Origin: an uncultured Spirochaetia bacterium
GTDB taxonomy: Bacteria > Spirochaetota > Spirochaetia > CAKZLE01
Assembly (NCBI GenBank): GCA_937125225.1
Contig: CAKZLE010000014.1
Coordinates: forward strand, 62,001-126,000
DNA: 64,000 bases
Reading direction: 5' to 3'
Part shown: piece after piece, positions 17,378 to 26,605 of the stretch
Numbering within the stretch: the first letter of the stretch is position 1
How the letters are laid out: each line of letters opens with the position of its first letter
Notes under the pieces: generated by a model
The model's database searches: none
Told to the model about the DNA's origin: nothing
What the model saw: the letters and a program-made list of their open reading frames with translations, nothing else
Translations under genes and position numbers: made by a program

Positions 17378-18796
17378 TCAACCAATCTCATTCTTATCAT
17401 AATAGGCAATTATATAGGGATGGTTCTCATCATAGACAGTGAGGGGCTTTGCATCAGAGACGAATCCTGCGGACCTCACATTACCATTTAACTGACCAGT
17501 GAAGACATCTCCAAGATCATCTCTGCACAATTCGATCTTTTGGGTTAGGAGTTTTACCACATCTGGATACTCAGAAAAGACATTATGGGTCTCTCCAGGA
17601 TCTGACTTCAGATTATAGAGCTCATTAACCTCTCGATTCTCATCAATCGGGTCTGCAGAGTTGAATTCGATGGAATGCCTGTTTCTCGAGACGAACAGTT
17701 TCCAGTTCTCATACCTGACCGCTTCTAGGGTATTACACATATAGTAGAAGAAGGTGTCTCGATGAGATTGCTTGGATCTACCTAGTATCAGTTCTGATTG
17801 ATCTACACCATCTATGGTCCTCTCTTTTGGAAGCTCTTCACCTACGATCTTTGCAATAGAAGGAAGCAGGTCAATCGAGCTGATCAACTGATCACTGATA
17901 CCAGAAGAGATATGATTCTTCCAATGAACAATAAATGGTACGCGAAGTCCACCTTCCCAAGTAGTTCCCTTTGTTCCTCGTAGACTACCATTACTCTCAC
18001 CAAAATCATTCCTTGAACCATTATCTGAAGTGAACAAGATGATAGTATTCTCATAAAGACCATATGTCTTGAGGGTATCTACAAGCACACTAGTCGACCA
18101 ATCAATAGCCGCAACGCAGGCCCCGTAATCTCCATTTCTTGAATTCCCAATAAACATTGGCGCAGCATATAAAGGAAGATGGACATGCATATGTGCAAAA
18201 TAGAGAAAGAAGGGGTTATCTTTATTACGTTTGATGAAATCAACACTCTTCTCGACATATCGTTCAGTCAGTGAAGTCTGATCTGGTTGTTCCTGAATGA
18301 CCTCCATATCATTAATAAGAGGCAATGGAGGTCGATCAGGGCGTTCTGTCGTAGGACACATATCATTACTATAGGGAAGCCCATAGTACTCATCAAAGCC
18401 AAAATTCAAAGGGAGGAATTCCGGTTGATCTCCACAGTGCCATTTCCCAACAATCTTGGTAGCATAATCAGCTTTCTTAAGTAATTGTGCAATGGTGAAC
18501 TCATGCTTCTCTAAACCTAGCTCATCACCAGGTCTTAGAACTCTATTCCCATGAAAACTCCCGAAACCTATCCTTGGAGGATAACAACCTGTGAGCATTG
18601 CTCCCCTTGAGGGAGAACAGACAGATGATGCCATATAAAAATCATTGAACTGTAATCCATCTCGAGCCAATCCATCAATACAGGGAGTTGAGTTCTTCTT
18701 CGATCCATAACACCCTAGATCACCATATCCAAGATCATCACAATTGATAAGAATGATATTAGGTCTCATTTTTTCATTTTCTTCTCTGTTCATCAT
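17378..18796 (-). CDS. Sulfatase without signal peptide
   Basis: Formylglycine-dependent sulfatase of 472 residues. NIILINCDDLGYGDLG provides metal ligands and VCSPSRGAMLTG is the maturation motif, so the catalytic residue is a Cys converted to formylglycine. The ligand motif FTSDNGS is also intact. The N-terminus is charged and non-hydrophobic, so the enzyme should be cytoplasmic. It is the last gene of a unit with the ABC importer and a second sulfatase, 66 bases behind the latter. That gap holds a weak TAGAAG/CTTCTA hairpin. The substrate is probably a sulfated sugar delivered by the importer. No formylglycine-generating enzyme is in the window. Confidence 0.9.
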   Translation of the reverse strand: MMNREENEKMRPNIILINCDDLGYGDLGCYGSKKNSTPCIDGLARDGLQFNDFYMASSVCSPSRGAMLTGCYPPRIGFGSFHGNRVLRPGDELGLEKHEFTIAQLLKKADYATKIVGKWHCGDQPEFLPLNFGFDEYYGLPYSNDMCPTTERPDRPPLPLINDMEVIQEQPDQTSLTERYVEKSVDFIKRNKDNPFFLYFAHMHVHLPLYAAPMFIGNSRNGDYGACVAAIDWSTSVLVDTLKTYGLYENTIILFTSDNGSRNDFGESNGSLRGTKGTTWEGGLRVPFIVHWKNHISSGISDQLISSIDLLPSIAKIVGEELPKERTIDGVDQSELILGRSKQSHRDTFFYYMCNTLEAVRYENWKLFVSRNRHSIEFNSADPIDENREVNELYNLKSDPGETHNVFSEYPDVVKLLTQKIELCRDDLGDVFTGQLNGNVRSAGFVSDAKPLTVYDENHPYIIAYYDKNEIG

Positions 18797-18862: not shown

Positions 18863-20242
18863 TCACCTATATAATCCTTTGGGTGAATAGGCATCGGACC
18901 TACTGACAAGTGCTCCCTCTGGAGGGGAAACAGTGCCAGAGCATAAAGGATCATGAGTATCTACCATCCAGCTCTCAAGAGCTTCCACTAATGTATGATA
19001 GACCTCTTGAGTCTTATTATCTAATTGATCTCCAACTAGAAGGTTCATTTCTTCATCAGGATCAGTCTGTAGATCATATAGGAGGTCTTCATACTGATCG
19101 AACTCATTGGTATTTTGAGAAAATTCAAAGAGCCCACTCTCACTCTCTTCTCCAAGTAGTTCTATCTTTGCAGGAGAATTATCGATGTTCGAGGGGAGAA
19201 AGGGGTATTTTGTGAACCGTCTGATCAACTTAAAGGCTGAAGACCTTATTGCTCTTACCGGTTCATAGGCTGCATGGTAAGTTATCTCTGAAAAAAGATA
19301 TTCATGGAAAGGAGAATCTAAACAATCATCTTTGATGAGAGATATGAGACTCTTCCCCCGCAAAGACTTATCATCAACCCCTAAGAGTTCATGAATCGTT
19401 GGGATGATATCGAGGTGGGAAACAGGTTCCTCTATAACGATAGAATTCTTTATTCCCTCTATAGCGAGATCTTCAGGAAATCTTATCATGAGTTCAACCC
19501 CAGTTCCTCGATCACTGAGTGTACATTTATATCCAGGAAATGCGATTCCATGATCGGTAGTCACAATGATAAGAGAATCATGATAAAGTCCCTGATCCTT
19601 CAAAGCCTTAAGAACCTTACCAATCAACAGGTCGGTATGTTCAACACCTCTCTTATATCCTGCAAGATCTGTTCTCAACTCATCTGTATCCGGTAAACCA
19701 TATAGGGGGAATCTTTTATCTTCAAAGGGTCTATCCGCAACTGGGAAAGGTCTGTGTGGCTCAAATAGCCCCCAGAACAGGTAGAAAGGAGGTTCATGAG
19801 GATCTTTACCTTGAATCCATTCAGTCAAGGCCTCCGCTATTGAGGAGTCCCAGTCTAATGGTTCGAATCCGGGTGATAATGAAGCTTCGGGATCCTTACC
19901 GATATATTCATCATAACGTAACATCTCCCAATCTGGGACCTCATGCTGAATACCAGCAAGGGCAGTAGAATAGTTCAAGTCCTTTAACCTACTCGAAAGG
20001 TGTTTCTCAACTGGACTTAAGGCGAAACCTCTATGAGCTAGACCAATCATATTCACTTCATGGGGATACAAGCCTGTGAGCATAGCAGCCCTACTTGGTG
20101 AACAGGTAGGAGCTGCACAAAAGGCCTCTTTAAAGAAAACACCCTCTTCTGCTATAGCTGATATATTCGGTGTATGAACAGGAAACCCATAGGGCTGGAC
20201 AGCACGTCCAGCATCATGGGCATGTATGATAATGATATTCAA
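18863..20242 (-). CDS. Sulfatase, heparan N-sulfatase-like, TTG start
   Basis: Sulfatase of 459 residues. It begins MNIIIIHAHDAGRAVQPYG, close to the HDxGR opening of sulfamidase-type enzymes, and has TCSPSRAAMLTG as its Cys-type maturation motif. TTDHGIAFPG supplies metal ligands. There is no signal peptide, so it is predicted cytoplasmic. The start is a TTG at 20242, 7 bases after AAAGGA and 4 bases after the permease stop; no later Met is plausible. This tight coupling shows import and desulfation are co-expressed. N- versus O-sulfate specificity is uncertain. Confidence 0.9.
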   Translation of the reverse strand: MNIIIIHAHDAGRAVQPYGFPVHTPNISAIAEEGVFFKEAFCAAPTCSPSRAAMLTGLYPHEVNMIGLAHRGFALSPVEKHLSSRLKDLNYSTALAGIQHEVPDWEMLRYDEYIGKDPEASLSPGFEPLDWDSSIAEALTEWIQGKDPHEPPFYLFWGLFEPHRPFPVADRPFEDKRFPLYGLPDTDELRTDLAGYKRGVEHTDLLIGKVLKALKDQGLYHDSLIIVTTDHGIAFPGYKCTLSDRGTGVELMIRFPEDLAIEGIKNSIVIEEPVSHLDIIPTIHELLGVDDKSLRGKSLISLIKDDCLDSPFHEYLFSEITYHAAYEPVRAIRSSAFKLIRRFTKYPFLPSNIDNSPAKIELLGEESESGLFEFSQNTNEFDQYEDLLYDLQTDPDEEMNLLVGDQLDNKTQEVYHTLVEALESWMVDTHDPLCSGTVSPPEGALVSRSDAYSPKGLYR

Positions 20243-20246
20243 CAGA

Positions 20247-21101
20247 TTATCCTTTGACAGCTCCTGCAGTCATTCCACTTATAATCCGGTCGTGTAGGAA
20301 AACATAGACAAAGATCGTTGGGATCATGGTGATCACGATCGCTGCAAGCATACTAGTATAATCTACAACGAACTGACTTCTGAAGAATCTGATACCTAAC
20401 TGTAGAGTTCTTGATGCTTCAGAAGAGGTCAATAACATCGCATAGGTAAACTCATTCCAACAATAGATGAATACCAGAGTTCCGGCAGTTACCAGACCAG
20501 GCTTTGTCAAAGGAAAGACTACCTTCGTAAAGCGTTGAGTGAAACTACAGCCATCTATAACAGCTGCTTCCTCGAGTTCGATGGGAATAGATCCCATGAA
20601 TCCATGAACAAGATAGACTGAGACAGGCAGATTCATTGCCGCATAGGTAATGATCAAACCAATAAGCGTATCATAGACTCCTAGACTACTTACGATCTTA
20701 AAATAGGGGACCATCAAAGCAATGATCGGAACCAACACACCTGCTAAGATAATGTTTAATATCGTCTCATTGAATTTGAACTTTTCCCTTGAGATTGCAA
20801 AAGCCCCCATTGCAGAAACCCCTAGATTAACAATCATCGCACAAGAAGCGATAATAGTAGAATTCAGGAACAGCCTAGGAAGACCTGCCATCTGTAGAGC
20901 ATTCTGATAATTCTGGAATTGCCAAACCGCTGGGAATGAGAAGGGTTGAGTCTCAAATTCAAAATTCGTCTTGAATGATGAGATGACTAACCAGATAATT
21001 GGTGCGAATGTCATGAAGAGGAAGAATATAATATACATCCACTTCCCGATCTTAGCGATATAATCGACTGCAGTAAGTTTTTTTAAACCTTTTTGTACCA
21101 T
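20247..21101 (-). CDS. Sugar ABC transporter permease (MalG/UgpE type)
   Basis: Inner-membrane permease of 284 residues with six predicted helices. The EAA loop is ELEEAAVIDGCSFTQRFTKVVFPLTKPG. GGGGGA lies 4 bases before the ATG. It forms the importer with the upstream permease and binding protein. No ATPase gene is present in the locus; a shared MsiK/UgpC-type ATPase elsewhere is usual for this family. Confidence 0.92.
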   Translation of the reverse strand: MVQKGLKKLTAVDYIAKIGKWMYIIFFLFMTFAPIIWLVISSFKTNFEFETQPFSFPAVWQFQNYQNALQMAGLPRLFLNSTIIASCAMIVNLGVSAMGAFAISREKFKFNETILNIILAGVLVPIIALMVPYFKIVSSLGVYDTLIGLIITYAAMNLPVSVYLVHGFMGSIPIELEEAAVIDGCSFTQRFTKVVFPLTKPGLVTAGTLVFIYCWNEFTYAMLLTSSEASRTLQLGIRFFRSQFVVDYTSMLAAIVITMIPTIFVYVFLHDRIISGMTAGAVKG

Positions 21102-21110
21102 GATATCCCC

Positions 21111-21992
21111 CTACTGTGCCGCATCTGATGCACTATCATTTCTACTGAAAAGCCATCTGATAATCGCAATCGTAACACCACCGAATATGATAAGAATCGA
21201 ACCGATAGCATTCGCCTCTCCATATTTCAATGCTCCCATATCCCTGAATAACAGGATACCAAGTACTGATGTTGAGTGAGCAGGACCACCATTAGTCATC
21301 AAATATGTTGATTCGAAGTGTCTCATTCCATAGGCTAATGCCAATGTCATCGTGGTTATGAGAATACCTCGCAACATCGGGATGGTAATATGTAATTCCT
21401 GTTGTAGGATATTTGCTCCATCGATCTCTGCTGCTTCATAATAGGTATCTGATATTCCCATACGTGAAGCAAGGATCACAATCATGAAATACCCAATATA
21501 GAAAACCTGTTGTACGATAACAGCTGGTAGAGCCGTAGTGGTATTACCCAACCAGTTCTGAGCTAGATGAGATAATCCTATTCCTTCCAGAAGACTATTG
21601 AGAATACCAAATTCAGCATTGTAGATCGCAAGCCACATCATTGCTAATGCAACTTGAGATATGACATTGGGAAGGAATATGATAGTTCTTGTGGTTTTCC
21701 AGCCTAGTGGCTTTCTAGCCAATATCATAGCCATTCCTGCAGCCATTGGAATATGGATAAAGGCCCTGATCAAAGCCCACAATATGTTGTTTCTTAATGA
21801 TAATCTGAAAGTTGCATCACCAAACAGATCGATATAGTTATCAAGTCCTATAAACTCCATACTCCCTATACCATTCCATTTTGTGAGACTAGTTACAAAT
21901 ACGAATCCTAATGGATAAACAAAATATACAACAAATAATGTTAATACAGGGAGGAGGAAAAGCAGTATCTGCTTCCAGTTCTTATTCCTCAT
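21111..21992 (-). CDS. Sugar ABC transporter permease (MalF/UgpA type)
   Basis: Permease of 293 residues with six predicted helices and the EAA loop YYEAAEIDGANILQQELHITIPMLRG. I place the start at ATG 21992, 5 bases after AGGTGG; GTG codons just upstream overlap that ribosome site. It is preceded by the hairpin behind the binding-protein gene. Confidence 0.92.
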   Translation of the reverse strand: MRNKNWKQILLFLLPVLTLFVVYFVYPLGFVFVTSLTKWNGIGSMEFIGLDNYIDLFGDATFRLSLRNNILWALIRAFIHIPMAAGMAMILARKPLGWKTTRTIIFLPNVISQVALAMMWLAIYNAEFGILNSLLEGIGLSHLAQNWLGNTTTALPAVIVQQVFYIGYFMIVILASRMGISDTYYEAAEIDGANILQQELHITIPMLRGILITTMTLALAYGMRHFESTYLMTNGGPAHSTSVLGILLFRDMGALKYGEANAIGSILIIFGGVTIAIIRWLFSRNDSASDAAQ

Positions 21993-22010
21993 CTTCACCA
22001 CCTTTTTAAA

Positions 22011-22064: not shown

Positions 22065-23330
22065 TTAATCGATCTTGTTAGCAATCTGCTCAACAAATTC
22101 TTCTGGGGTTGCCTGACCTAGAGCCATCTTTGCCAAAGCCTGTCCAAACTCAGCTACTACATCTGAAGTATAGTTATACTGGAAATGAGTATTGATGAAG
22201 GAAGCATCATTGATAGCATTCATGAATTTACCCTGAAGTGCATCAACCTCTTCATTTTCATCTACGGTATATCCGACTGCGAATAGAGCTCCAGAATCGA
22301 ATGAGATCTTTTTAACATTCTCAGGTTTTGTCATCCACTGCATGAATGCAACAGTTGCCTCTTTCTTTCTTGGGTCATCAGTAGCTGCTGCTGCAAGGTT
22401 TGACTGTGGGAATCCGATCTGTGCTCCACTGAATTCTGAACCAGGTGCAGATGCGATAGTTGTAGCATTATAAACTGCTTCTGCTTCGCTTTTGACTCGA
22501 CCAATATACCATGGTCCATTGATGAACATAGCAGATCTACCTGCGAGGAAGTGTCCACCAGAAACACCAGCGTCTCCACCAATAGCGTCTTTTGAAGTGT
22601 TTCCATCTGAATACATCTTAAGAAGAATCTCAGCAGCCTGTACGAATACAGGATCTGTAATATCTTTTTCCCAAACATCCGGTCCACCGATCGCTGCTGC
22701 GATATGTGAGAACCAGAGCATTGAAGTCCATGCATTTGTTCCACCAGTCATCTGACTTGTTGGGATGAAACCTGCAGCTTTGATCTTGTCACAAGCATCA
22801 AAGAATTCATCATAGGTTGTAGGAACTTCATCAACACCAGCTGCATTGAAGATGTCCATGTTATACCATACTGGTGTCACTGCGATCTCGAATGGGACTG
22901 ATTTAGTCTCTCCATCGATAGTAGCACCTGCGATAGAACCTTCAACGAAATTGTCTCCCCAGTCACTATCAAGGTCTTCTGAGAAATCCATCAGAAGGTC
23001 ACCTTCATAGAAAGCAAATGAAGTCTGACTCACATTGAAAACGAACAGGTCAGGTACGACACCTGCAGAGATCTGAGCATTCAGTTTATTTCTATAAGCA
23101 TCATAATCAGGGTTCTCTTCAATATCTACCTGATATTTTCCATCATACATCTCATTGAATTCATCAACTAATGCTTTTACCATTGGTGCTTTTGAATCTG
23201 CACCTACCCAGATTGTTGGCCATTTCAAAACTATTTCTTTATCTGCTTCCTGCTGTCCAGCAGCCCAAACTACACTTGGCATAATAAACATGATCAATGC
23301 TAGGCCAAGTAAGATTTTTTTTGTCCTCAT
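22065..23330 (-). CDS. Sugar ABC transporter substrate-binding protein (family 1)
   Basis: Exported solute-binding protein of 421 residues. The signal peptide MRTKKILLGLALIMFI is followed by WAAGQQEADKE, a spirochaete-like cleavage region without a lipobox Cys. The mature part begins KEIVLKWPTIWVG and contains PDLFVFNVSQTS, as in oligosaccharide binders of the UgpB/MalE group. The start at 23330 has AAGGAG upstream; the frame extends further but without support. It is the first gene of the importer/sulfatase operon, transcribed from a promoter overlapped by the ROK operator. The ligand is likely a sulfated mono- or oligosaccharide, by context only. Confidence 0.92.
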   Translation of the reverse strand: MRTKKILLGLALIMFIMPSVVWAAGQQEADKEIVLKWPTIWVGADSKAPMVKALVDEFNEMYDGKYQVDIEENPDYDAYRNKLNAQISAGVVPDLFVFNVSQTSFAFYEGDLLMDFSEDLDSDWGDNFVEGSIAGATIDGETKSVPFEIAVTPVWYNMDIFNAAGVDEVPTTYDEFFDACDKIKAAGFIPTSQMTGGTNAWTSMLWFSHIAAAIGGPDVWEKDITDPVFVQAAEILLKMYSDGNTSKDAIGGDAGVSGGHFLAGRSAMFINGPWYIGRVKSEAEAVYNATTIASAPGSEFSGAQIGFPQSNLAAAATDDPRKKEATVAFMQWMTKPENVKKISFDSGALFAVGYTVDENEEVDALQGKFMNAINDASFINTHFQYNYTSDVVAEFGQALAKMALGQATPEEFVEQIANKID

Positions 23331-23352
23331 AAAAAATTCTCCTTTTTTATTT

Positions 23353-23373
23353 TTACTTACACTAAGTAAGTAA
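23353..23373. promoter_or_regulatory. ROK operator 1
   Basis: TTACTTAC and GTAAGTAA arms flank five central bases. The 21-bp site overlaps the -10 element of the importer promoter. Read in the direction of transcription it differs from the site at 24792-24812 by one base of 21. Both flank the ROK regulator gene, so it is very likely the operator for that protein. Confidence 0.85.
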
Positions 23374-23397
23374 AACATAGTAATATTCAGTTGTCAA
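23369..23397 (-). promoter_or_regulatory. Promoter of the sugar ABC/sulfatase operon
   Basis: On the minus strand TTGACA (23397-23392), a 17-base spacer and TTTACT (23374-23369). The -10 element shares five bases with the ROK palindrome, which fits repression. Confidence 0.65.
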
Positions 23398-23507
23398 CGA
23401 TTTTCTTAAGACATGGCTGTCCAAAGATGATCGTCAGACCCCTCCTCCTGTATATCAAACCACTTTTTATCAATGGTGCTGATAGCTTCTAATTATACTA
23501 TATAAGA

Positions 23508-24692
23508 CTAATTGATCGCAAAGAATTCATCGAATACCAGATCACAAGCACCAAGTCCTGCTTCAAGAGCACTGTACTCGTCAGCATAGACTTCGATCTC
23601 TGAGCCCTTGGGGTTATAAGGATCGACCTGAACACACTTCCTAACCACTTCTGCAAGGATCTGGGAAATCTCCTTGAAGCGTGTGATGACGAGGATGCCA
23701 TCAGGAGAGAGTGTCCTGAAAATATTCTGTGCACTCGTTGCTAGCTGAGACACCTCGCGCTTGATCAGACTCCTCAACTCCAGGTCTCCATTCTCCAATG
23801 CTTTTTCCACATCATCTATTGCAGGGAAATCTAATCCATATTTCTTAAGAGACTCAGTGATCGCAGGTTCTGACACATACGTCTCAAGACAGCCATTCGA
23901 ACCGCAATAGCATTCACGTCCATTCACATCTACGATAGTATGGCCAACCTCGAAGGTAGTCCTACCAAGAACCGAGAACAGCTTACCATTCGTTATGAAG
24001 GCTCCTCCCACACCCTGTCTGATGAAGAAGGTAAAAAGAGCTCCAGAATCCTTTGCAACACCTCTTCGATAGGCGTTCATGGCGATGACACTCGAGTTGT
24101 TGGTTACGATCACTGGAATATCGAATTTGTCCTCTAGCATCTTTCCGAGGGGATAGTTCTCAAAACCCTGAATCCTGGTATAACTGATGACCTCACCGGT
24201 ATCAACATTGATACGTCCCGGAGCACCGATTCCCATTCCCAAGATCTTCTTCTTATCTATCCCTGTCTTACTGATCGCCTGACTGATCATTTCCCCCAAT
24301 AGTTGTGAGACATCATCGGCATCAGCACCGTCTGGTAACATCAGATCCTCTGAATAGATCGGTCTCTTATTGAAATCAACAATGAGTACATGAGCTGATC
24401 GTGACCAGAATTCGACTCCGATCACAAAATGAGCTTTGGGTACCACCTGATAATAGACAGGTTTTCTCCCCTTCTTATCAGGATCCTTGATGATGGTGTT
24501 CTTTGTTACTAGGATCAAACCCTTCTCCTCCAGTATAGAGAAGATCCTCAAAACTGTTGGAGCTTTCAGACCAGTAAGATTAACCACTTCCGATTGAGAT
24601 AGGCCTTCACTATGTTGTATAGCTTGTAGAACGATCTTCTCATTCTTCTGTCTGATATCTTCTCCACGTAGTGGCAGATTCTTCATTGTCAT
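23508..24692 (-). CDS. ROK-family transcriptional regulator
   Basis: Sugar-responsive repressor of 394 residues. An N-terminal winged helix (about 10-75) contains SQSEVVNLTGLKAPTVLRIFSILEEKGLI. The ROK domain (about 90-385) includes GMGIGAPGRI, the EVGH segment and the zinc motif CYCGSNGCLE. It is NagC/XylR-like. AGGAG lies 7 bases before the ATG at 24692. It sits between the importer/sulfatase operon and the divergent transketolase operon, each carrying the same 21-bp palindrome in its promoter region. The inducer is probably a sugar or sugar phosphate from the imported substrate. Confidence 0.92.
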   Translation of the reverse strand: MTMKNLPLRGEDIRQKNEKIVLQAIQHSEGLSQSEVVNLTGLKAPTVLRIFSILEEKGLILVTKNTIIKDPDKKGRKPVYYQVVPKAHFVIGVEFWSRSAHVLIVDFNKRPIYSEDLMLPDGADADDVSQLLGEMISQAISKTGIDKKKILGMGIGAPGRINVDTGEVISYTRIQGFENYPLGKMLEDKFDIPVIVTNNSSVIAMNAYRRGVAKDSGALFTFFIRQGVGGAFITNGKLFSVLGRTTFEVGHTIVDVNGRECYCGSNGCLETYVSEPAITESLKKYGLDFPAIDDVEKALENGDLELRSLIKREVSQLATSAQNIFRTLSPDGILVITRFKEISQILAEVVRKCVQVDPYNPKGSEIEVYADEYSALEAGLGACDLVFDEFFAIN

Positions 24693-24776
24693 GACCTATC
24701 TCCTGTTGAATAAACACGTAAACTCTTTTTTAGCAATCAGTATCTTTATACTATTTTCTGCTTTACAAAGGAAGGA

Positions 24777-24812
24777 TATAATGCTATTTTTTTACTTACT
24801 TAATGTAAGTAA
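24777..24812 (+). promoter_or_regulatory. Transketolase promoter and ROK operator 2
   Basis: A perfect TATAAT lies at 24777-24782 without a clear -35 element. The 21-bp palindrome TTACTTAC...GTAAGTAA follows at 24792-24812, covering roughly +3 to +24. Repression there would block early elongation. The site is nearly identical to operator 1. Confidence 0.8.
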
Positions 24813-24834
24813 TAATTATAGCAAGGAGTTCCTG

Positions 24835-25665
24835 ATGAATCAAGAAAAAAAGCAGGACTTGCAGGAAAAGGCACGAGAAGTTCGGATAGAGACACTGAAA
24901 TCAATCGGACATCTCGGAGTCGGCCACGTTGGTGGTGCGATGTCTATCGTGGAAGTCTTGACCTATCTCTATTATGCAGAGATGAATGTAAATCCACAAG
25001 AGCCACGGATGAATGATCGTGATCGTCTTGTTCTTTCAAAGGGTCACGCCGGTCCTGCTCTTTATAGTATTCTCGCTATGAAGGGGTTCTTCCCTAAAGA
25101 GTGGTTATTAACTCTCAATCAGGGAGGTACGAACCTTCCAAGCCATTGTGATAGAAACCGTACTCCGGGAATAGATATGACTACAGGCTCTCTCGGCCAG
25201 GGTCTTTCAGCAGCTGTCGGTATCGCACTGGCCACAAGATTGAATAAGACTGATAACAGAGTGTTCGCTATCATCGGTGATGGAGAATCACAAGAGGGTC
25301 AGAACTGGGAGGCAGCGATGAGCGCCGCTCAATTCAAACTAGGAAGACTGATAGCGTTTACTGATTATAATAAGATGCAGATCGATGGGATGACTGAAGA
25401 TATCATGGACCTTGCTGCACTTGAGAACAAATGGGAATCCTTCGGCTGGCATGCTCAGCGAATCGATGGACATGACTTCGAAGCCCTCGCAGAAGCGGTG
25501 AAGAGAGCGAAAGAGGAGACAGATCGACCATCGATGATAGTCCTCGACACCATTAAGGGTAAAGGATGTTCATTCGCAGAGAACAAACTCGGTTCTCACA
25601 ACATGCCGGTATCAGCAGATGATCTCAAAGAAGCTCTTGCAGCACTTGGTGAGGGGGAAAACTAG
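24835..25665 (+). CDS. Transketolase, N-terminal (thiamine-binding) subunit
   Basis: First half of a split transketolase, 276 residues. IGHLGVGHVGGAMS, LSKGHAGPALYS and the thiamine diphosphate motif GDGESQEGQNWEAAM with DYNKMQIDG are intact. The start MNQEKKQDLQ at 24835 is supported by AAGGAG 6 bases upstream. With the next gene it would transfer two-carbon units between sugar phosphates. Split transketolases often belong to special sugar pathways and need not be the housekeeping enzyme. The ROK operator in its leader ties it to the sulfated-sugar importer. Confidence 0.92.
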   Translation: MNQEKKQDLQEKAREVRIETLKSIGHLGVGHVGGAMSIVEVLTYLYYAEMNVNPQEPRMNDRDRLVLSKGHAGPALYSILAMKGFFPKEWLLTLNQGGTNLPSHCDRNRTPGIDMTTGSLGQGLSAAVGIALATRLNKTDNRVFAIIGDGESQEGQNWEAAMSAAQFKLGRLIAFTDYNKMQIDGMTEDIMDLAALENKWESFGWHAQRIDGHDFEALAEAVKRAKEETDRPSMIVLDTIKGKGCSFAENKLGSHNMPVSADDLKEALAALGEGEN

Positions 25666-25666
25666 A

Positions 25667-26605
25667 ATGGGAAAAGATATGAGAACAGTGTATACTGATA
25701 CACTTATTGATATTGCCAAAGAGAATGAACAGATCTGTGTACTTGAAGCAGACCTGATGGCAGCTACTGGGACAAAAACCTTCAAAGATGTCTATCCTGA
25801 TAGATTCTTCGATGTCGGGGTCGCAGAAGCTGATATGGTCGGAGTCGCCTCAGGTCTATCAGCAGAGGGCAAGATACCCTTCGCTGCATCATTCGGGACT
25901 TTCGCATCACGAAGGACGTTTGATCAATTCTTCCTGTCTGCCAACTATGCTCAACTCAATGTGAAACTCGTCGGTACCGATCCAGGAATAACAGCACAGT
26001 TCAATGGTGGGACACATATGCCTTTCGAAGATATCGGCATGATGAGACTCGTCCCCGGTCTCGTGATCATCGAGCCTGCAGATATCGTCTCCTGTGAAGC
26101 TCTCATCAGAGCAGCAGCAGATTATAAAGGTTCTATGTATATCAGACTCCATAGAAAAGGGTCGAATGCCCTCTATGCTGAGGATCAGAAGTTCGAATTA
26201 GGAAAAGGTAATGTCCTTGTAGATGGAGATGATGTAACGATCATCGCCACCGGATTCATTATGGTTCCGGAAGCCTTGAAAGCCGCTCAGATCCTGAAGG
26301 AACAGGGGATCTCTGCTGCTGTGATCGATATGCACACGATCAAGCCATTGGACAATAAGTTGGTCCTCGATTACGCACAGAAGACTGGTGCGATAGTCAC
26401 TTGTGAGAATCATCAAGTTGCCGGTGGACTCGGTGGAGCTGTAGCTGAACTCCTATGTGAGGAGTGTCCTACACCATTAGGAAGGATCGGATCCCAAGAC
26501 AGATTCGGACAGGTAGGGACTCTGGAGTTCCTGATCAAAGAATATGAGATGACCGCAGAGGATATTGCGAAGAAAGCCGTATCAGTCATCGCCAAAAAAA
26601 GATAA
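25667..26605 (+). CDS. Transketolase, C-terminal subunit
   Basis: Second half of the split transketolase, 312 residues. The pyrimidine-binding domain shows FDVGVAEADMVGVASGLSAEGK with the catalytic Glu, and PFAASFGTFASRR. The C-terminal domain (from about 185) ends with GRIGSQDRFGQVGT. The ATG at 25667 follows the upstream stop almost directly, with GAGGGG ahead; an ATG at 25679 is an alternative. The two frames meet as in other split enzymes, not as a frameshift. Confidence 0.92.
   Translation: MGKDMRTVYTDTLIDIAKENEQICVLEADLMAATGTKTFKDVYPDRFFDVGVAEADMVGVASGLSAEGKIPFAASFGTFASRRTFDQFFLSANYAQLNVKLVGTDPGITAQFNGGTHMPFEDIGMMRLVPGLVIIEPADIVSCEALIRAAADYKGSMYIRLHRKGSNALYAEDQKFELGKGNVLVDGDDVTIIATGFIMVPEALKAAQILKEQGISAAVIDMHTIKPLDNKLVLDYAQKTGAIVTCENHQVAGGLGGAVAELLCEECPTPLGRIGSQDRFGQVGTLEFLIKEYEMTAEDIAKKAVSVIAKKR

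Follow-up and report, generated by a model that had tools for sequence, protein, structure and literature searches.

Sulfoquinovose (SQ) is an abundant sulfur sugar of plant membranes. Few organic sulfur compounds are more plentiful, and bacteria that produce sulfide are fed by its breakdown under anaerobic conditions. One regulator of its catabolism, CsqR, is a DeoR-family protein. It controls the yih genes of E. coli in response to sulfosugars (PMC9594981). In the sulfoacetate form of the sulfo-transketolase pathway, SQ is degraded by SqvB/SqvD, SqwGH, SqwI, SqwD, and SqwKL (PMC12890257, PMC9594981, PMC11659671), where SqwI is assigned to the family PF02502 (PMC9594981) and SqvB to PF16161 (PMC12890257, PMC9594981). 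The sulfoacetate variant is known from Acholeplasma (Chu et al., 2023, as described in PMC12890257 and PMC11659671), and a 2026 review reports the sulfo-transketolase pathway in Spirochaetes.

The window studied here, a stretch of 64,000 nucleotides from an uncultured Spirochaetia bacterium, contains a ROK-family gene between two matching palindromes. These palindromes are, very probably, the operators of a local ROK repressor that controls a single regulon of SQ uptake and sulfo-transketolase catabolism. The predicted system shares the SqwGH, SqwI, SqwD, SqwKL, GH31, and DUF4867 genes and, as a candidate, SqvD with the Acholeplasma variant, whereas its two loci are tied together by four common operators and a ROK repressor, and two sulfatases have been added to the importer operon. 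The regulator resembles NagC and Mlc in combining a winged helix with a ROK domain, as well as in its zinc motif, AT-rich palindromic operators, and sugar regulon; nevertheless, it scores far below the cut-offs of these families (112.8 of 650 and 99.8 of 530 bits) and has its own operator and a local regulon. CsqR and the ROK protein both act on SQ catabolism, the latter by prediction, but they belong to different families. The pathway itself is known, whereas its ROK regulator and the DNA target of this regulator appear to be undescribed in the literature searched, in which we found no account of ROK regulation of SQ genes, judging by titles and abstracts, or of what turns the transketolase route on; the original description of the sulfoacetate variant may hold a prior mention.

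Operators, promoters, and the ROK protein

Two exact 21-bp palindromes are located at 23353-23373 (TTACTTACACTAAGTAAGTAA) and 24792-24812 (TTACTTACTTAATGTAAGTAA), and when each is read in the direction of its transcript (TTACTTACTTAGTGTAAGTAA and TTACTTACTTAATGTAAGTAA, respectively) they differ at one position of 21. Direct reading thus bears out the coordinates and the single-base difference given in an earlier note on this DNA, and also its placement of the ROK gene (23508-24692, minus strand) between the two palindromes. At up to three mismatches, the window contains 2 matches, compared with a mean of 0.12 in shuffled sequence.

The operator sequence comprises two overlapping palindromes, the 21-bp one with an 8-5-8 arrangement described in the earlier note and a 7-3-7 core offset from it by 2 bp. 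Over 84 sites, the mean complementarity is 0.63 for the former and 0.70 for the shifted core, and one mismatch or none is observed in 38/84 and 60/84 sites, respectively. Compensatory changes across the operator dyad showed no excess over independence, so profile symmetry is the sole basis for choosing between the dyads. With modest confidence, we favor as the operator the 17-bp core within a site of approximately 25 bp, which places predicted operator 1 at 23349-23373 (core 23353-23369, PWM score 25.8) and predicted operator 2 at 24792-24816 (core 24796-24812, PWM score 24.7). The 21-bp palindrome is exact, although by profile symmetry over the 84 sites its dyad is probably 2 bp off.

Operator 1 spans the -10 box of the importer promoter (23369-23397, minus strand; TTGACA at 23397-23392, a 17-bp spacer, and TTTACT at 23374-23369), in agreement with the overlap already noticed between the first palindrome and the -10 of the binding-protein gene. 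Likewise, the second palindrome does follow the TATAAT of the transketolase promoter, a perfect box at 24777-24782 on the plus strand that is accompanied by a -35 element weak against the consensus (TTTTCT by position). On the other side of operator 2, and abutting it, lies a putative ROK promoter that had been missed (24815-24843, minus strand; TTGATT-N17-TATAAT, a consensus match only, at 10/12 positions), which points at the ROK gene, so that operator 2 is flanked by the -10 boxes of these two divergent promoters, for the transketolase and ROK genes. In some relatives, the shared interval contains separate sites for the ROK and transketolase genes (L051/L089, L052/L143). The candidate sqvD gene on contig C36 is again preceded by TTGACA-N17-TTTACT, and there too the operator covers the -10 box, as in the importer promoter. 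The position of the operators over the importer -10 and between the divergent -10 boxes suggests repression together with autoregulation, and the natural reading would be that all target promoters are repressed and that the ROK gene is autoregulated.

The ROK-family protein (394 aa) has an N-terminal winged helix (PF13412, E 4e-5) and a C-terminal ROK domain (PF00480, E 8e-37). The zinc motif CxCGxxGCxE is present as CYCGSNGCLE, and residues C263, G264, and C268 as well as the E-x-G-H motif are invariant in 13 orthologues. The catalytic Asp of ROK kinases (NDxN) is replaced, with NDAN of the ROK glucokinase 2qm1 aligning to NNSS, as expected of a regulator. Nine further ROK homologues are encoded in the same genome.

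Sites in the genome and the sulfoquinovose genes

The genome (3,433,998 bases in 36 contigs) was scanned by pattern matching, and the candidates returned were scored with the PWM. Two matches have no mismatches, namely the window pair, and two have one mismatch (C36:98832 and C36:106937, 8 kb apart), while the next matches appear only at three mismatches. The C36 sites score 25.8 and 22.6, whereas each of the nine weaker candidates scored in this genome reaches at most 7.9; among the latter, three sites with a one-mismatch core (C4:59615, C26:45427, and C33:1640) were taken as chance occurrences. The palindromes are not chance: the 3.43 Mb hold four strong sites, and random occurrence of the motif throughout the genome, named in the earlier note as grounds for dismissing the operators, is not what the scan returned.

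Both C36 sites lie within one 12-kb run of genes on the same strand. The first precedes genes for an aldehyde dehydrogenase of the CoA-acylating type, an ADP-forming CoA-ligase pair, and a DASS anion transporter, followed further along the operon by a 299-aa protein without a Pfam match, an amidohydrolase-like protein, and a GFO/Idh/MocA oxidoreductase. Behind the second site come genes for a FucI-like isomerase, a GH31 enzyme of the sulfoquinovosidase clade, and a DUF4867 protein. The motif scan therefore yielded an aldehyde dehydrogenase, a CoA ligase, an anion transporter, an isomerase, a GH31 enzyme, and a DUF4867 protein, and none of the additional members proposed in the earlier note, i.e., a kinase, an aldolase, and a sulfatase maturase.

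In the window, family matches identify the sugar-binding protein of an ABC importer (22065-23330) and its permeases of the MalF/UgpA (21111-22001) and MalG/UgpE (20247-21101) types, all on the minus strand. On the plus strand they identify the N (24835-25665) and C (25667-26605) subunits of a SqwGH-like split transketolase and a SqwI-like isomerase of the RpiB/LacAB family PF02502 (26619-27104), the family to which SqwI belongs (PMC9594981); for SqwGH and SqwI, family membership is observed and activity predicted. The C36 genes supply the other candidates. The closest solved protein to the SqwD candidate is the CoA-acylating succinate-semialdehyde dehydrogenase 8cei (E 5e-102), the SqwKL candidate is an ADP-forming pair of ATP-grasp_2 and CoA-binding ligase subunits, and the SqvB candidate is the DUF4867 protein (PF16161, E 1e-66). 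The FucI-like SqvD candidate has a match to PF02952 (E 6e-8), and a search for its solved structural relatives found none. Since the gene families of the window and of C36 match the published pathway step by step, the substrate is most likely SQ, and the regulon most likely serves to degrade it through the sulfo-transketolase pathway to sulfoacetate, in which form, rather than as sulfate, the sulfur would most likely leave.

The C36 GH31 enzyme falls in the YihQ clade (5aed, E 5e-168, versus 7e-45 for the next, generic GH31 type). Of the sulfonate-pocket residues of YihQ, Q288, R301, W304, and Y508, it retains all except R301, which is replaced by Gln; specificity for SQ is therefore likely rather than certain. 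This Gln is found in the GH31 enzymes of the window clade (L042:3299-5299) and of most relatives, and Arg is found in many other spirochaetes, including the Sphaerochaeta-like group; an Arg two residues further on in many GH31 enzymes might substitute for it. Variation is also seen at the SqvD position, which in five sulfo-transketolase clusters (L110, L118, L133, L139, and L146) is occupied by a different FucI-like isomerase, 23-26% identical to the SqvD candidate of this genome.

Several other genes deserve mention. The 299-aa protein, the amidohydrolase-like protein, and the GFO oxidoreductase form a trio that recurs with the SQ importer in many spirochaetes (L041:13930-14826, L042:11-1869, and relatives). 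The GFO protein encoded before SqvD was considered as an NAD-dependent sulfoquinovosidase and rejected, because other dehydrogenases match it at least as well as 8qc2/8qc3 (E ~6e-18) do. Three more homologues of the transketolase N subunit are encoded at C20:215576, C30:2609, and C34:81866 (62, 60, and 44% identical).

Conservation across Spirochaetota

ROK homologues were gathered from 98 genomes and 76 named loci, all of the latter from Spirochaetota except two records, whose labels read Clostridiales and simply "bacterium". The ROK gene occurs together with a transketolase gene in 53 of the 76 loci, all 53 from Spirochaetota and usually in divergent orientation, and is bordered on its other side by the importer, SqvD, or SqwD operon. 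De novo motif search from random starts in 101 upstream regions recovered TTAnTTACTTWcnGWAAGTAAnTAA, a motif of approximately 25 bp identical to that of the window operators. In cross-validation, one half of the loci served for training and the other half for testing, with the threshold set so that 1% of shuffled regions scored above it; the motif was found upstream of the transketolase gene in 43/47 cases, sqvD in 25/30, the binding-protein gene in 14/19, the ROK gene in 43/52, and the SqwD aldehyde dehydrogenase gene in 3/5. Sites with up to two mismatches are present in 15/20 genomes with closer ROK homologues, compared with 7/30 other genomes of the class. Sites also accompany nine ROK homologues that have no recognised SQ genes, and several of these homologues lie on cut contigs. 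In the ROK tree, a divergent, well-supported clade (L092, L095, L097, L100, and L103-L105) lacks the motif, and just one member has recognised SQ genes nearby. Across the 53 loci, the operator and the ROK gene are conserved together with the SQ genes. A conserved 25-bp operator accompanied by its own ROK gene marks the genes of the pathway even where they are scattered across a genome, and shows which added genes fell under its control; moreover, the inducer of the regulator is directly testable.

Sulfatases, alternative readings, and the proposed mechanism

Two sulfatase genes stand behind the importer genes on the minus strand, encoding the SGSH-like SulfB (18863-20242), 4 bp behind the permease gene, and the arylsulfatase-like SulfA (17378-18796), 66 bp after SulfB. 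Given these gaps, the two genes most likely share a transcript with those of the importer. The C/S-x-P-x-R motif of type I (formylglycine) sulfatases is present in each as CSPSR (VCSPSRGAM in SulfA, TCSPSRAAM in SulfB), and both match PF00884 (E 2e-58 and 4e-37, respectively). No signal peptide is evident in either, which would place them in the cytoplasm, acting on an imported substrate. SulfA and SulfB are absent from the SQ operons in all relatives' loci compared. In the nearest relative (G001/L043), whose binding protein is 78% identical, other genes take their place; in L149, a SulfB homologue (45%) adjoins the SQ cluster but stands behind a different ABC transporter; and homologues elsewhere belong to ROK/ABC/GFO/PHP operons. 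The sulfatase pair appears to have been added behind the importer genes in this lineage, under the same operator.

According to the earlier note, a sulfated sugar is imported, O-desulfated, and passed to a dedicated transketolase and isomerase. Tight coupling of two CSPSR sulfatases to the importer genes speaks for this scheme, as does a sulfatase maturase gene at C18:13336. However, all other genes of the regulon form the SQ set, none of the relatives, not even the nearest one, has the sulfatases in its SQ operon, and the genome motif scan found no operator near the maturase gene, making the scheme very unlikely. Its proposal of one ROK regulon is strongly supported for the joining of the importer to the split-transketolase and isomerase operon, given the scarcity of the motif and its conservation in dozens of relatives; desulfation is not part of the core, with the sulfatases outside the conserved regulon and the C36 genes forming the SQ set. 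Sulfatases do not cleave C-S sulfonates, and SQ carries its sulfur as such a sulfonate. The importer could also take up O-sulfated sulfoquinovosides, with intracellular O-desulfation preceding sulfoglycolysis and the sulfatases recruited for that step. We consider this unlikely; if true, it would constitute a combined route for sugars bearing both a sulfate ester and a sulfonate, and no such route is described in the literature searched.

It is also quite unlikely that ROK binds the same operators in the service of another sulfonated sugar or an SQ derivative. The Gln in place of YihQ Arg301 in the GH31 enzymes of the clade, despite the retention of the other three pocket residues, and the alternative FucI-like isomerase of some relatives (23-27% identity) would fit such a substrate, but the gene families are exactly those of the published SQ pathway, and the closest relatives of the GH31 enzyme are SQ-cleaving enzymes. 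Most improbable is that another regulator binds the palindromes and the ROK gene is a bystander: ROK binding to the operators is predicted and the genome offers nine further ROK homologues, whereas this ROK gene and the motif lie side by side throughout the phylum, the site lies upstream of ROK in 43/52 cases, and the subclade without the motif coincides with the divergent ROK clade.

For the preferred reading, ROK control of SQ catabolism, we propose a mechanism that builds on the sites observed directly, their scarcity, conservation, and gene content, and in which binding, repression, the inducer, and the enzyme specificities are predicted. Without inducer, a ROK dimer would occupy the four operators, shutting off the importer promoter at its -10 and both divergent promoters of the transketolase and ROK genes, hence autoregulation, and would also sit before the SqwD and SqvD operons on C36. 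The repressor might be released when the ROK sugar pocket takes up SQ, one of its glycosides, or a product of an early step, e.g., sulfofructose. SQ glycosides would be taken up by the importer, SQ freed by the GH31 enzyme, and sulfofructose formed by SqvB/SqvD; SqwGH and SqwI would then remove two C2 units and pass them to glyceraldehyde-3-phosphate, and the sulfoacetaldehyde would be converted by SqwD/SqwKL to exported sulfoacetate with a gain of ATP. The two cytoplasmic sulfatases would have come under the importer operator as a lineage-specific addition.

Related sulfatases occur in two other settings. In genome G067 (contig C107, L212:6652-15371), close homologues of SulfA and SulfB, a third sulfatase, and an oxidoreductase form one run, a possible source module of the window sulfatases. 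At L213:7192-9952 (contig C3 of the genome studied here, G000), a second ROK gene is divergent to a sulfatase gene whose product shares 58% identity with SulfA; next comes a TctC/TctA-like transporter, and two serine recombinase-like genes lie nearby.
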